Shown: piece by piece, positions 55,314-61,148 of the stretch
Position numbering within the stretch: the stretch's first letter is position 1
Layout of the letters: the number at the start of each line of letters is the position of its first letter
Assembly (NCBI RefSeq): GCF_000147335.1
Contig: NC_014501.1
Span: forward strand, 4,356,001 to 4,420,000
DNA length: 64,000 nt
Source: Gloeothece verrucosa PCC 7822
Lineage (GTDB): Bacteria > Cyanobacteriota > Cyanobacteriia > Cyanobacteriales > Microcystaceae
Direction: 5' to 3'
Program-made: the position numbers and the translations under genes
The notes under the pieces: generated by a model
The model's database searches: none
Seen by the model: the letters and a program-made list of their open reading frames with translations, nothing else
What the model was told of the DNA's origin: nothing

Positions 55314-55438
55314 TGAGTAATCAATTTTTATAACATTGATTCACAAAAATACTACATTCCTATATAGTTATTAAATGGATACGATCAGCAGACAATTACC
55401 CAGTAGCTTATCTAAGCTAAAAACAAACGAGGTAGATT

Positions 55439-57673
55439 ATGCGTATATTGATGATTCAACCCAACTATCACTCGGGAGGGGCTGAAATAGCCGGAAACTG
55501 GCCGCCGAGTTGGGTTCCTTATGTTGGTGGGGCATTGAAACAAGCCGGATTTGATAATATCCGCTTTGTGGATGCCATGACCAATTACATTCCTGATGAT
55601 GTGTTAGCCGATATTATTGCCAAGAATCAACCCGATGTGGTGTTGGCAACGGCCATTACACCAATGATTTACCAATCTGAGCGCACCCTACAAATAGTTA
55701 AAGAAGTCTGTCCCAACGCCAAGACCATTATGGGGGGCGTTCATCCCACCTATATGTATAATGAGGTTCTCAACGAAGCACCCTGGGTGGATTACATTAT
55801 TCGAGGAGAAGGAGAAGAAATTACCGTCAATTTATTGAGTGCCATCGCCAACGGAACGGATGTAAAAGACCGCCACAACATTCTAGGAATCGCCTTCTGT
55901 GAAAACGGTCAAGTGGTTGCTACTCCCGCTCATCCTCCTATCAAAAATTTGGATACTCTTACCCCAGATTGGACCCTGCTGGACTGGAATAAATATATCT
56001 ATACGCCGCTCAATGTACGGGTAGCTGTGCCCAACTTTGCCCGAGGCTGTCCTTTCCGTTGTCGTTTTTGCTCTCAGTGGAAATTTTGGCGCAAATATCG
56101 CTCCCGCACCCCGAAAAACTTTGTCGATGAAATAGAATATCTGGTTAAAGAACACAACGTCGGCTTTTTCATTTTAGCTGACGAAGAACCCACCATTACT
56201 AAGCCGCGTTTTGTCGCCCTCTGTAAAGAATTAATTGAGCGCAAATTAAATGTTCACTGGGGAATTAATACTCGAGTCACCGATATTCTCAGAGATGAAA
56301 AAGAATTACCCCTCTATCGTCAAGCCGGATTGGTTCACGTCTCTTTAGGCACTGAAGCCGCCGCCCAGTTAAATTTAAATGTATTCCGCAAAGAAACTAC
56401 TATAGAAGATAATAAGCGGGCCGTGCGGCTGTTGCGAGAAAACGGCATCGTAGCCGAAGTTCAGTATATTATGGGGCTAGAAAATGAAACCCTAGAAACC
56501 ATTGAAGAAACCTATCGCATGGCGCGAGATTGGAAGGCGGACATGACCAATTGGAATATGTTCACGCCCTGGCCGTTTTCGGAATTGTTTGAGGATGTAG
56601 GGGATAAGGTGGAAGTGCGGGACTATTCCCACTATAATTTTGTCACGCCGATTATGAAGCCGGATAATATTACCCGGGAACAGTTACTCAAAGGAGTGCT
56701 ACACAATTACGCCCGCTTTTACCTGTGGAAGACTCTAGAATATTGGTTTGAGAAAGACCCTTTTAAGCGTCGTTATTTACTCGGTTGTCTTTGGGCATTT
56801 TTGCAGACGACACTAAATAAACGCTTCTACAACCTCAAGCGAGTCAAACAAAAAGGACTACACACTGAAATTGATTTCGGTTTCGATGAGTCTAAAATTC
56901 TTACCCGCGAACAAATCGCCCAACGTAAGCAAGCTCATCCTGAACTCGGCGCGGATGTAAATTTTGTTGGTACTATTTCAGCTTGTGGTGCGCCGGCTGA
57001 CTTACCTGAAATTCATTTACATCAGCAGAGTGAAACTCACTCGGAAATCCACGTTTTTCTGATTGAAGATGAGGAACAAAAGCGAGTGGGACTACGTCAA
57101 GCGCTGCGCTCACAAACGGGCATAGAAATCTACAGCGAAGCCACTAATGCTGACACGGGGTTGGTATTGTTAACCTCGGTGGCGGGGGGAGATGTGGCCC
57201 TGGTAGACGTGAGTTTACCGGATAAGAGTGGGGTAGAGTTGATTAAAGCGTTTCAGCAAGTTCAGGAAACTTCTGAAAATTCATCGCTAAAACTCTGTAT
57301 GTTGATTGAAACTGATAATGACCATGAAGTGTTGGCGGCCATTGCTGCCGGGGCACAATCATACTGTTTAAAAACCGCCCCCATTGAGCAGCTAGTAGAA
57401 GCCATTCGACTCACCCACGCGGGTCAATTTTACCTTCACCCTCTGATCGCTTCAAAAATTCTCTTGTTGGTGAAAAACTATCAAGGCGAAACGATTTTGA
57501 CGCAAACTGAGTTAGAAGTGCTGAGGTTAATTGCAGAAGGAACTTCATCGGATGAGATGGCGCAACAGCTTGGGATAACCCTGAATATGATTAAAACCCA
57601 TCTGGCCAATATTCTCAACCGACTTTATATTAGTGATTTGATCCAAAAACCTCTCAAAGCACTTGCTGTATAA
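55439..57673 (+). CDS. BchE-like B12-binding radical SAM enzyme fused to a NarL-type response regulator
   Basis: A continuous 744-aa frame. Residues 1-150 are a cobalamin-binding domain (MRILMIQPNYHSGGAE); residues about 195-400 a radical SAM domain with the cluster motif C204-x3-C208-x2-C211 (GCPFRCRFCSQWKFWR); residues 400-490 are the BchE-like C-terminal part. BchE is the oxygen-independent cyclase forming ring E of chlorophyll precursors. After a linker (about 490-535) comes a complete receiver (537-660: E543/D544, phosphoacceptor D590 in ALVDVSLP, K645) and a LuxR-type helix-turn-helix (about 683-740, LTQTELEVLRLIAEGTSSDE). I see no frameshift or stop between the parts. Ordinary homologues end near residue 500. 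The product therefore looks like an enzyme carrying its own regulator. Confidence 0.88.
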   Translation: MRILMIQPNYHSGGAEIAGNWPPSWVPYVGGALKQAGFDNIRFVDAMTNYIPDDVLADIIAKNQPDVVLATAITPMIYQSERTLQIVKEVCPNAKTIMGGVHPTYMYNEVLNEAPWVDYIIRGEGEEITVNLLSAIANGTDVKDRHNILGIAFCENGQVVATPAHPPIKNLDTLTPDWTLLDWNKYIYTPLNVRVAVPNFARGCPFRCRFCSQWKFWRKYRSRTPKNFVDEIEYLVKEHNVGFFILADEEPTITKPRFVALCKELIERKLNVHWGINTRVTDILRDEKELPLYRQAGLVHVSLGTEAAAQLNLNVFRKETTIEDNKRAVRLLRENGIVAEVQYIMGLENETLETIEETYRMARDWKADMTNWNMFTPWPFSELFEDVGDKVEVRDYSHYNFVTPIMKPDNITREQLLKGVLHNYARFYLWKTLEYWFEKDPFKRRYLLGCLWAFLQTTLNKRFYNLKRVKQKGLHTEIDFGFDESKILTREQIAQRKQAHPELGADVNFVGTISACGAPADLPEIHLHQQSETHSEIHVFLIEDEEQKRVGLRQALRSQTGIEIYSEATNADTGLVLLTSVAGGDVALVDVSLPDKSGVELIKAFQQVQETSENSSLKLCMLIETDNDHEVLAAIAAGAQSYCLKTAPIEQLVEAIRLTHAGQFYLHPLIASKILLLVKNYQGETILTQTELEVLRLIAEGTSSDEMAQQLGITLNMIKTHLANILNRLYISDLIQKPLKALAV

Positions 57674-59907: not shown

Positions 59908-60543
59908 TTATTTTGTGTATGGCTGAATGATTAAATTATTGTTTAAGGCGGCTTCTTCAATACCAGCAGTTAATTCGGGATCGTCAAGGCGAATCACTTG
60001 CTCAGGTGGACAAAATAGGGCACTTTTTGCTCGTTCAAAGAGTGCGACCGCTTTCTCATCATTGTGAGCATTATAATAAATAATTCCGTCAACTACAGAA
60101 TAAATAGAGTCTTGCTCATAAAAATAACGTGACCAAGTTTGAGTAAGTTTTCTATCAGCGTCTTTAGCTAATGCCGCGACTGAACCGGCTTTCATTGCTG
60201 CGGACCCTCGCAAATCTAACAGTTTAATAGTCCGAGTTAACTGAACTTGTGCAACACATTGATCTTTAATTTCAATTACCCCAGTATCTCCAAAACATTC
60301 TACTAAACATCCTGATAAAGTAAATGCGGCATAATAAATACCCCGTTCCGAATCATTTTGAGGATTATTTAAAGAACCTCTATGATGATCGAAACGGCTT
60401 ATCGGCCCGTAATAACGAAAAGTAAGTGCTTGTGTTTGATATTTTGTTGGGTCAAAAATTCGGATGATGTAATCGTCTACAGATAGTTCATAAATAATAG
60501 GAGAAGGAGAATTAATCGGAGGAGGTGGAGCAATTTTTACCAA
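59908..60543 (-). CDS. RES-domain toxin (NAD-degrading)
   Basis: A 211-aa RES family toxin. The domain has an Arg in YIIRIFDPTKYQTQALTFRY, then ISRFDHHRG, ERGIYYAAFTLSGCLVECFG and the Ser-rich region LDLRGSAAMKAG. RES toxins deplete NAD by phosphorolysis or hydrolysis and halt growth. Its start overlaps the stop of the antitoxin gene by seven bases, the standard antitoxin-first order. The catalytic Arg, Glu and Ser seem present by pattern, so it may be active. Confidence 0.87.
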   Translation of the reverse strand: MVKIAPPPPINSPSPIIYELSVDDYIIRIFDPTKYQTQALTFRYYGPISRFDHHRGSLNNPQNDSERGIYYAAFTLSGCLVECFGDTGVIEIKDQCVAQVQLTRTIKLLDLRGSAAMKAGSVAALAKDADRKLTQTWSRYFYEQDSIYSVVDGIIYYNAHNDEKAVALFERAKSALFCPPEQVIRLDDPELTAGIEEAALNNNLIIQPYTK

Positions 60544-61148
60544 TCTAATGCTCCTAAACCTTGAGCTTCTTCAATCACTCGTTCTTTTTCTCCCTGTTTT
60601 AGAGCTTCTACTGGAGTTAAGCCACCTAAATAAGGGTTAGGACGAACTAACCAATTAAGCTTAGCAAAATCGGAGACTTGCAAACTTTTAAGGACATCGG
60701 GTAAACTTTCTATTACGCCATCAGGACCTTCTGGATCAAACTGCCAAACCGGAAAACGATATGCTCCGTTATCTTTTATGGCCAGCAGGGTTTGATTTTT
60801 AAGGCGAACGCGCAGCGACACTTCGTGTTCATGAGGAGTTTGACGAGAAGTTCCTAGTAATTCAGCTACTTCAGGTGCGGTTAAAGCATTCTCGAGTAAT
60901 TCTCGCCGACGCTGAAAATATTGCACTAACGTTTTTATATTTAATTGCGTTTTTTCAGTTGCAGTAAAGGTCCGACCGACTAATGCTTTTACTAACTTAT
61001 CTTTTGATGAATTTGATGAAGAAGTCTTTTTCTTCAAACTGTTAGCGAGCTTTTCTAGTTCATCTATTAAAATTTTTTGCTCATCAGGAGTTAAGCTCTT
61101 GATTATATTTAAATATTTGATTTCTTGCGGGTCTAAACTCGCTTGCAT
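60537..61148 (-). CDS. Antitoxin of the RES pair (DUF2384/MbcA-type)
   Basis: A 203-aa antitoxin starting at ATG 61148 behind AGGAGGG. The middle holds a helix-turn-helix (NALTAPEVAELLGTSRQTPH), then KDNGAYRFPVWQFDPEGPDG, and the C-terminus is the toxin-binding DUF2384 type (NPYLGGLTPVEALKQGEKER). A stretch at residues 108-115 (HEVSLRVR) interrupts the usual spacing between SRQTPH and LKNQTLLAI and seems to be an in-frame insertion at 60804-60827. The leader has two direct repeats that may be its operator. Confidence 0.82.
   Translation of the reverse strand: MQASLDPQEIKYLNIIKSLTPDEQKILIDELEKLANSLKKKTSSSNSSKDKLVKALVGRTFTATEKTQLNIKTLVQYFQRRRELLENALTAPEVAELLGTSRQTPHEHEVSLRVRLKNQTLLAIKDNGAYRFPVWQFDPEGPDGVIESLPDVLKSLQVSDFAKLNWLVRPNPYLGGLTPVEALKQGEKERVIEEAQGLGALDW

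Follow-up and report, generated by a model that had tools for sequence, protein, structure and literature searches.

A putative BchE/ChlE cyclase and a response regulator in one reading frame of Gloeothece verrucosa PCC 7822, and the arrangements of its receiver in other cyanobacteria

Enzymes of the BchE/ChlE family (TIGR02026) combine a B12-binding domain with a radical SAM domain that carries a CX3CX2C cluster loop, and the family model ends at 497 positions. NarL/FixJ regulators (VraR, LiaR, DesR) are built of a receiver and a LuxR-type helix–turn–helix (HTH). In the receiver fold, alpha1, beta2 and alpha2 surround the edge strand beta2, away from the alpha4-beta5-alpha5 face that is used by many regulators; alpha1 is the docking site of kinases. 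Bacterial pseudo-receivers, some of which regulate via protein contacts, have lost key catalytic residues, as has much of the receiver family described here; the receiver of the present gene lacks the switch Thr only and its partner is a biosynthetic enzyme, a case not seen in the available sections of the pseudo-receiver paper (PMC12632262). In the accessible part of PMC4500134, transcription accounts for whether cyanobacteria use oxygen-dependent or oxygen-independent tetrapyrrole enzymes: the activator ChlR, a separate protein and not a domain attached to the enzyme as here, controls the chlAII-ho2-hemN low-oxygen cluster. The same text records bchE in 2 of 37 cyanobacterial species, PCC 7822 and PCC 7425. 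According to the available text of PMC4944227, which cites Yamanashi et al. 2015, a Rhodobacter capsulatus bchE mutant regains BChl a synthesis with the bchE orthologues of two Cyanothece strains. The gene treated below is presumably one of these two orthologues. By title or start of abstract, and with most subscription papers outside the coverage, no paper on a BchE/ChlE-receiver fusion was found.

Architecture of the gene: in the window (the whole stretch of 64,000 nucleotides that was analysed) a frame of 744 codons runs uninterrupted from the ATG at 55439 to the stop at 57673, both in the ORF list and in the sequence, with no stop or frameshift at residues 485–537 (Table 1). The original prediction had read it as a BchE-type cyclase joined to an intact receiver and a LuxR-type DNA-binding domain. 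BchE TIGR02026 (NCBIfam) matched residues 2–495 over model positions 1–496 of 497 with 764.1 bits, the curated cut-off being 481.35; the enzyme part is a family member, with a predicted cyclase activity, and the cluster cysteines C204, C208 and C211 were invariant in 39 aligned sequences. The B12-binding and radical SAM domains likewise exceed their Pfam cut-offs. Beyond the end of the model the protein has about 250 further residues of linker, receiver and HTH. Response_reg (PF00072, residues 539–657) gave 46.7 bits against a Pfam cut-off of 30.2 and GerE (PF00196, residues 686–734) 41.7 bits against 23.5; the NarL/FixJ layout, receiver then LuxR-type HTH, is thus present, with DNA binding as the predicted property of the latter domain and with a receiver that, compared with NarL/FixJ proteins, is not free-standing and has no switch Thr.

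Table 1. Features of the chlE-response regulator fusion gene (positions in the window)
Feature	Position	Strand	Basis
chlE-response regulator fusion gene, 744 aa	55439..57673	+	ORF list and family scans
GAGG, Shine-Dalgarno-like (putative function), ATG 6 nt downstream	55429..55432	+	sequence inspection
B12-binding domain, residues 14–132	55478..55834	+	PF02310, 75 bits
Radical SAM domain, residues 199–361	56033..56521	+	PF04055, 89.6 bits
Cluster loop CPFRCRFC, residues 204–211; Arg207 is the mark of the receiver-associated clade	56048..56071	+	alignments
Tail with ISACGAP motif and flexible linker, residues 486–536	56894..57046	+	pLDDT; motif common to unfused ChlE
Receiver domain, residues 537–660; E543, D544, D590 and K645 kept, switch Thr lost	57047..57418	+	PF00072 and alignments
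alpha1-beta2-alpha2 segment, residues 548–582; best-conserved stretch within the receiver family; putative contact face	57080..57184	+	alignments
Asp590 codon, phospho-acceptor position	57206..57208	+	alignment
LuxR/GerE-type HTH, residues 685–740; evolves fast	57491..57658	+	PF00196, 41.7 bits

Trivial origins of the joint frame were considered. A sequencing error or frameshift merging two genes is ruled out by the relatives that keep the same frame open, and chance similarity of the C-terminal part by the two Pfam cut-offs, both of which are exceeded. An internal start giving a separate regulator is unlikely: when ATG, GTG and TTG were scanned in frame, codons 471–560 held only GTG 550, within helix 1 of the receiver. 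The AlphaFold model of the protein had a mean pLDDT of 73.6 and a pTM of 0.59; pLDDT fell below 50 at residues 486–494 and 502–534, the latter being predicted as a disordered tether. With this model, Foldseek matched cobalamin/radical SAM enzymes (TsrM, AprD4 and others); the regulator part was matched to VraR, LiaR (5hev) and DesR by sequence as well as by Foldseek. The observation of ChlE, receiver and HTH in one protein is confirmed.

Recurrence: named genome contigs were scanned, and the fractions that follow, taken among the matches listed (80 of 199 relatives), are not population estimates. The receiver was fused in 31 of 66 cyanobacterial ChlE loci; the HTH region was kept in 5 of these 31 and 26 ended after the receiver, L089 among the latter being truncated by its contig; the remaining 35 loci, labelled Nostocales, had no fused receiver. 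No similar regulator was found in the flank examined of these 35 loci among the matches listed. The 14 Chloroflexota/heliobacterial loci (L117–L130) gave 0 fusions, and the statement that there is no fusion outside cyanobacteria rests on these 14. The layout of the window is open in one frame also in L051–L054, L113 and L222, the enzyme part of L222 being identical to that of L113. L051, a metagenome-assembled genome labelled "Nostocaceae cyanobacterium", is fused and contradicts the rule of receiver-less Nostocales; its enzyme falls in the clade of the window (enzyme tree, support 98/96). In alignment A2, 26 of 39 members were fused; Response_reg was found in 26/26 and GerE in 6/26 of them (E 0.01). 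The one-protein link of a tetrapyrrole enzyme with a response regulator, proposed from a single gene, is real and recurrent and, judged by sequence, the fusion is more general than had been supposed.

In an even phylum sample of 386 genomes, BchE passed the cut-off in 20. The receiver was fused in 4 of these, part of an adjacent regulator in 1 and unlinked in 1; another 11, from family f18, had none, and the last 3 had a BchE of a divergent type. A class sample (388 genomes, overlapping the phylum sample) contained BchE in 46, of which 5 were counted for the divergent type alone (3 read; G606 and G638 by score only). The remaining 41 had the receiver in 34 and lacked it in six f18 genomes and in G409, absence here meaning a whole-genome search down to E 1e-44 only; among the 34, the receiver of G636 is cut by a contig end and the enzyme part has a frameshift in G450 and G514. 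The co-occurrence is one-way: the best receiver reached at least 174 bits in 25 of 388 genomes and chlE was present in 25/25; the next 12 rows (at most 163 bits) were free regulators of 240–262 codons, and the family signature was missing in 5/5 of those read. The receiver is not required for the cyclase chemistry, because the enzyme occurs without it in 35 of the 66 cyanobacterial loci among the matches listed and in G409.

The divergent BchE (L048–L050; genomes G011, G019 and G123) belongs to the window's own family, passes the TIGR02026 cut-off, has the loop CPHLCNYC and is 33–36% identical to the window's enzyme in two of the three loci. Two BchE matches each were found in G513, G632 and G481.

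Four ARRANGEMENTS of the receiver relative to ChlE were found: fused; a full-length regulator gene next to chlE (G028, where three stops separate the two, and G388); an adjacent receiver-only gene (G458, G494); and unlinked (G306, whose ChlE has no receiver and whose 128-aa receiver lies 1.9 Mb away). The homologues are not always two separate proteins, as they would be had the original prediction failed; two proteins do occur in these five genomes. The several arrangements in which ChlE and receiver are kept together point to a control or docking module that is dedicated to the enzyme. In the regulator tree, a quick tree with long-branch warnings in which 3 of the 30 rows marked as free duplicate fused or adjacent genes, the fused and adjacent receivers were split from 27 free rows (25 distinct) by a branch with SH-aLRT 100. 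Direct donation by the most similar free regulators within the same genomes is unsupported, the 27 free rows holding their own side of the tree.

The receiver-associated enzymes formed a clade with support of 96/89, or 100/99 without the G028/G388 pair; the clade of the first value had 92/84 in a larger tree. The divergent L048–L050 had a branch length of 10 in the first tree and were excluded, with redundant rows, from both later enzyme trees. In the larger tree unfused members stand inside the receiver-associated clade: G458 and G409 at the base of the receiver-only clade (98/89), G306 next to a Leptolyngbya group (97/97) and G494 in an open fork. A P.MKI-like C-terminal end was found in unfused enzymes of Calothrix, Richelia, some Nostoc, G306, G494 and G409, with a variant in G458; counted with duplicates, it is present in 27 of 56 unfused frames and missing from 29 (Nostocales, G028 and G388), and it precedes the receiver in 0 of 83 fused frames. 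Because this tail is common to unfused enzymes of several branches, it suggests, together with the enzyme tree, that the ancestral enzyme was unfused and had a partner gene, and that fusion happened at least twice, once in the full-regulator clade and once in the receiver-only clade; there may have been up to four fusions if every tree branch is trusted. That just 27 of the 56 unfused frames have the MKI-like end counts against this reading. Fission with a regained tail, instead of repeated fusion, could also have given this distribution.

Eight enzyme positions, among them R207, separate the receiver-bearing from other ChlE (scan to position 445). The cluster loop was CPFRCRFC in 38/38 receiver-associated enzymes, G306 included; Thr or Ser takes the place of Arg207 in the Nostocales and Chloroflexota/heliobacterial forms examined (CPFTCRFC or CPFSCRFC in 46/46 Nostocales rows, CPFTCRFC in 14/14 outgroup rows). 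In further loci Arg was found in 34/34 (four pairs being the same gene), receiver-less G409 included. Arg207 is no proof of coupling, since it goes back to one change on a single branch. A tail motif with a Cys, ISACGAP.DLPE, was noted at 56975–57010 of the window (residues 513–524) and also in Nostocales ChlE tails; its SACG core is present in 46/46 Nostocales and 26/38 receiver-associated rows and occurs twice in L042, L088 and L094–L097.

Conservation of the receiver: free regulators (n = 25) kept D544, D590, T623 and K645 in 25/25 each and E543 in 24/25; fused receivers (n = 34) kept D544 in 16, D590 in 29, T623 in 6 and K645 in 27. The mean pairwise identity of alpha1-beta2-alpha2 (548–582) was 0.75 in the 34 fused against 0.45 in the 25 free receivers, and that of beta4-alpha5 was 0.42 against 0.57, respectively; compared with NarL/FixJ proteins, conservation has moved to alpha1-beta2-alpha2. 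R549, L552, R553, R557, S566–N570, T573, G574, L578 and S580 were invariant in 36/36 rows and in 63/63 of an enlarged set, whose 27 added rows had passed an SEATN letter filter (0 of 33 candidate loci removed by it) and whose rows differ within the first 110 letters, some being near copies. Asp at 590 is missing in 16 of the 63 rows with these positions unaffected, and they are kept even in separate-gene receivers. The segment was picked after the alignment had been seen, and with that post hoc choice a circular-shift test gave 2 of 123 shifts as high (observed shift counted) and a random-set test 0 of 20000. Synonymous sites of the segment are saturated (pS 0.80–0.87, window versus five relatives), so the constraint acts on the protein, and a DNA-level constraint behind the frozen segment is ruled out.

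The segment looks like a contact face, and since receivers encoded by separate or unlinked genes retain it, such contact should function in trans. A homodimerisation module that merely pairs two ChlE molecules might show some of the same conservation: R549, R553 and R557 lie in alpha1, and NarL-type receivers dimerise via alpha1-alpha5 (PMC12632262, available sections). This reading appears improbable, beta4-alpha5 being the least conserved part (0.42) and alpha2 being frozen too; besides, the unlinked receiver of G306 would have to bind ChlE as well before it could hold two enzymes together. That the fusion is neutral and the receiver a drifting passenger is scarcely credible. Its phospho-site and C-terminal half have decayed in several clades and the Nostocales manage without it, but dN/dS of the receiver is 0.07–0.13 in estimable pairs (the others are saturated), the face is invariant despite saturated synonymous change, fusion apparently was repeated, and high-scoring members of the receiver family were seen just in chlE genomes.

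The phosphorylation site bears on a further reading, in which the fusion is a working two-component output: D590 is phosphorylated by a histidine kinase, and either the enzyme or the HTH is then switched by the receiver. The description of the receiver as intact was slightly overstated: E543, D544, D590 and K645 are present, but the switch Thr is missing, the window having I623/E624 at a position where 25/25 free relatives have T623. As neither 623 nor 624 is Thr or Ser, the full site (acidic pair, Asp, Thr/Ser, Lys) is absent. By the residues that define pseudo-receivers the window's receiver lacks Thr only, D590 is lost in 16/63 rows and at least one of the acidic pair, Asp and Lys in 44/63. 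The four residues kept in the window, its GerE score above the cut-off and D590 in 47/63 rows speak for the two-component output, and a conserved alpha1 would also suit a fixed kinase partner. Against it stand the missing Thr, the combination of acidic pair, D590 and K645 in 19 of 63 rows (the window included) and with Thr/Ser at 623 or 624 in just 7, and a face that is the same in the 16 Asp-less rows; it is considered unlikely as a whole, although phosphorylation is possible in the 19 rows that keep the acidic pair, D590 and K645.

The HTH: GerE scores were 41.7 bits for the window, 36.1 for L051, 27.1 for L052 and L054, 18.0 for L053 and 19.6 for L113, the last two being under the Pfam cut-off of 23.5; of the adjacent regulators, that of G028 gave 19.2 bits and that of G388 no match at E 1. 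The window's HTH is the best preserved among eight compared, and DNA binding by it is possible in this strain. HTH identity was 23–61% in 12 of 15 pairs, as against 84–91% for the enzyme part, and 71–95% against 92–97% in the three pairs of L052–L054; relative to NarL/FixJ proteins, the HTH of the relatives is degenerating or missing. A one-protein sensor-regulator, with the ChlE part as sensor of the state of cobalamin, SAM, cluster or oxygen and the HTH as the part that controls genes, would draw on the presence of a possible sensor and a DNA binder in one frame and on the HTH kept in the window, L051–L054 and L113. It is nevertheless quite unlikely, given the 26 of 31 fused loci (among the matches listed, 80 of 199; one contig-cut) that end after the receiver, GerE in 6 of 26 fused A2 members, and the low identity in the 12 pairs together with the two HTHs under the cut-off. 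The HTH changes quickly and most fusions do not have it, so the role they share is not control of transcription; the gene control envisaged in the original prediction is unsupported as a shared role. A better fit is its other suggestion, a receiver that tunes enzyme activity, but Asp phosphorylation as the general signal is at odds with the pattern of conservation.

Genomic context: in the examined flanks of chlE (n = 71 loci) heme oxygenase was found 34 times, HemN 28 times and AcsF 16 times, often in one run; in this respect many chlE genes resemble the ChlR-controlled cluster as given in the accessible part of PMC4500134. The chlE of the window is flanked by a VTT-domain gene and a PmbA/TldD-like gene; the AcsF-heme oxygenase-HemN run of this genome lies at C1:4694035-4697627, and the chlAII-ho2-hemN cluster is ruled out as a neighbour, being about 280 kb distant. 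On another contig of this genome, a 6-kb stretch shows 84% identity over 61% of its length to a plasmid of Gloeothece citriformis PCC 7424. In G611 (L219:5082-8666, minus strand) a frame of 1195 codons comprises HemN, ChlE and receiver, that is, two low-oxygen tetrapyrrole enzymes and a receiver in one possible protein. An FA_desaturase-like gene (L055:6742-7581 and relatives) occurs in the chlE flank of 12 of the 71 loci and adjoins chlE in several. In L120, L124, L126 and L127 a free response regulator, probably generic, lies on the opposite strand about 3 kb from a Roseiflexus-type bchE. Elsewhere in the window, a RES-domain protein (59908–60543, minus strand; PF08808, 45.8 bits) is paired with a gene at 60537–61148 (minus strand; weak Rv2175c_C match under the cut-off), and the two resemble a RES-type toxin-antitoxin pair.

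Taken together, a transcription-factor story is less likely, and a ChlE-dedicated receiver or pseudo-receiver acting by protein contact is favoured. The regulator would have started out as a NarL-like gene of its own, in linkage with chlE, and fusion of the two would have followed on more than one occasion; the receiver would act on ChlE through the alpha1/beta2/alpha2 face, in general not by Asp phosphorylation, and would affect the activity, assembly, choice of partner or location of the enzyme under low oxygen; the HTH kept in the lineage of the window may still bind DNA, as a leftover or in a lineage-specific role. This account as a whole is held with slightly better than even confidence. 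The architecture, its recurrence, the kinship of fused and separate receivers, the one-way co-occurrence and the inverted conservation are observed; the direct contact, the direction of control, the signal, the number of fusions and the irrelevance of phosphorylation are inferred. A bolder form is put forward tentatively and is, on balance, doubtful: nearly all non-Nostocales cyanobacterial-type ChlE (34 of 35 in the class sample have the receiver) would be served, in cis and in trans, by a dedicated pseudo-receiver that arose on the Arg-loop branch, underwent two or more fusions, perhaps four, docks via the beta2 edge and gates the cyclase at falling oxygen.

If the receiver does act on ChlE, it would add a post-translational layer to the choice between oxygen-dependent and oxygen-independent enzymes. 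A two-component fold would then have been turned into an enzyme subunit, and the series fused, adjacent, unlinked and lost would be a clean case of a receiver becoming one.
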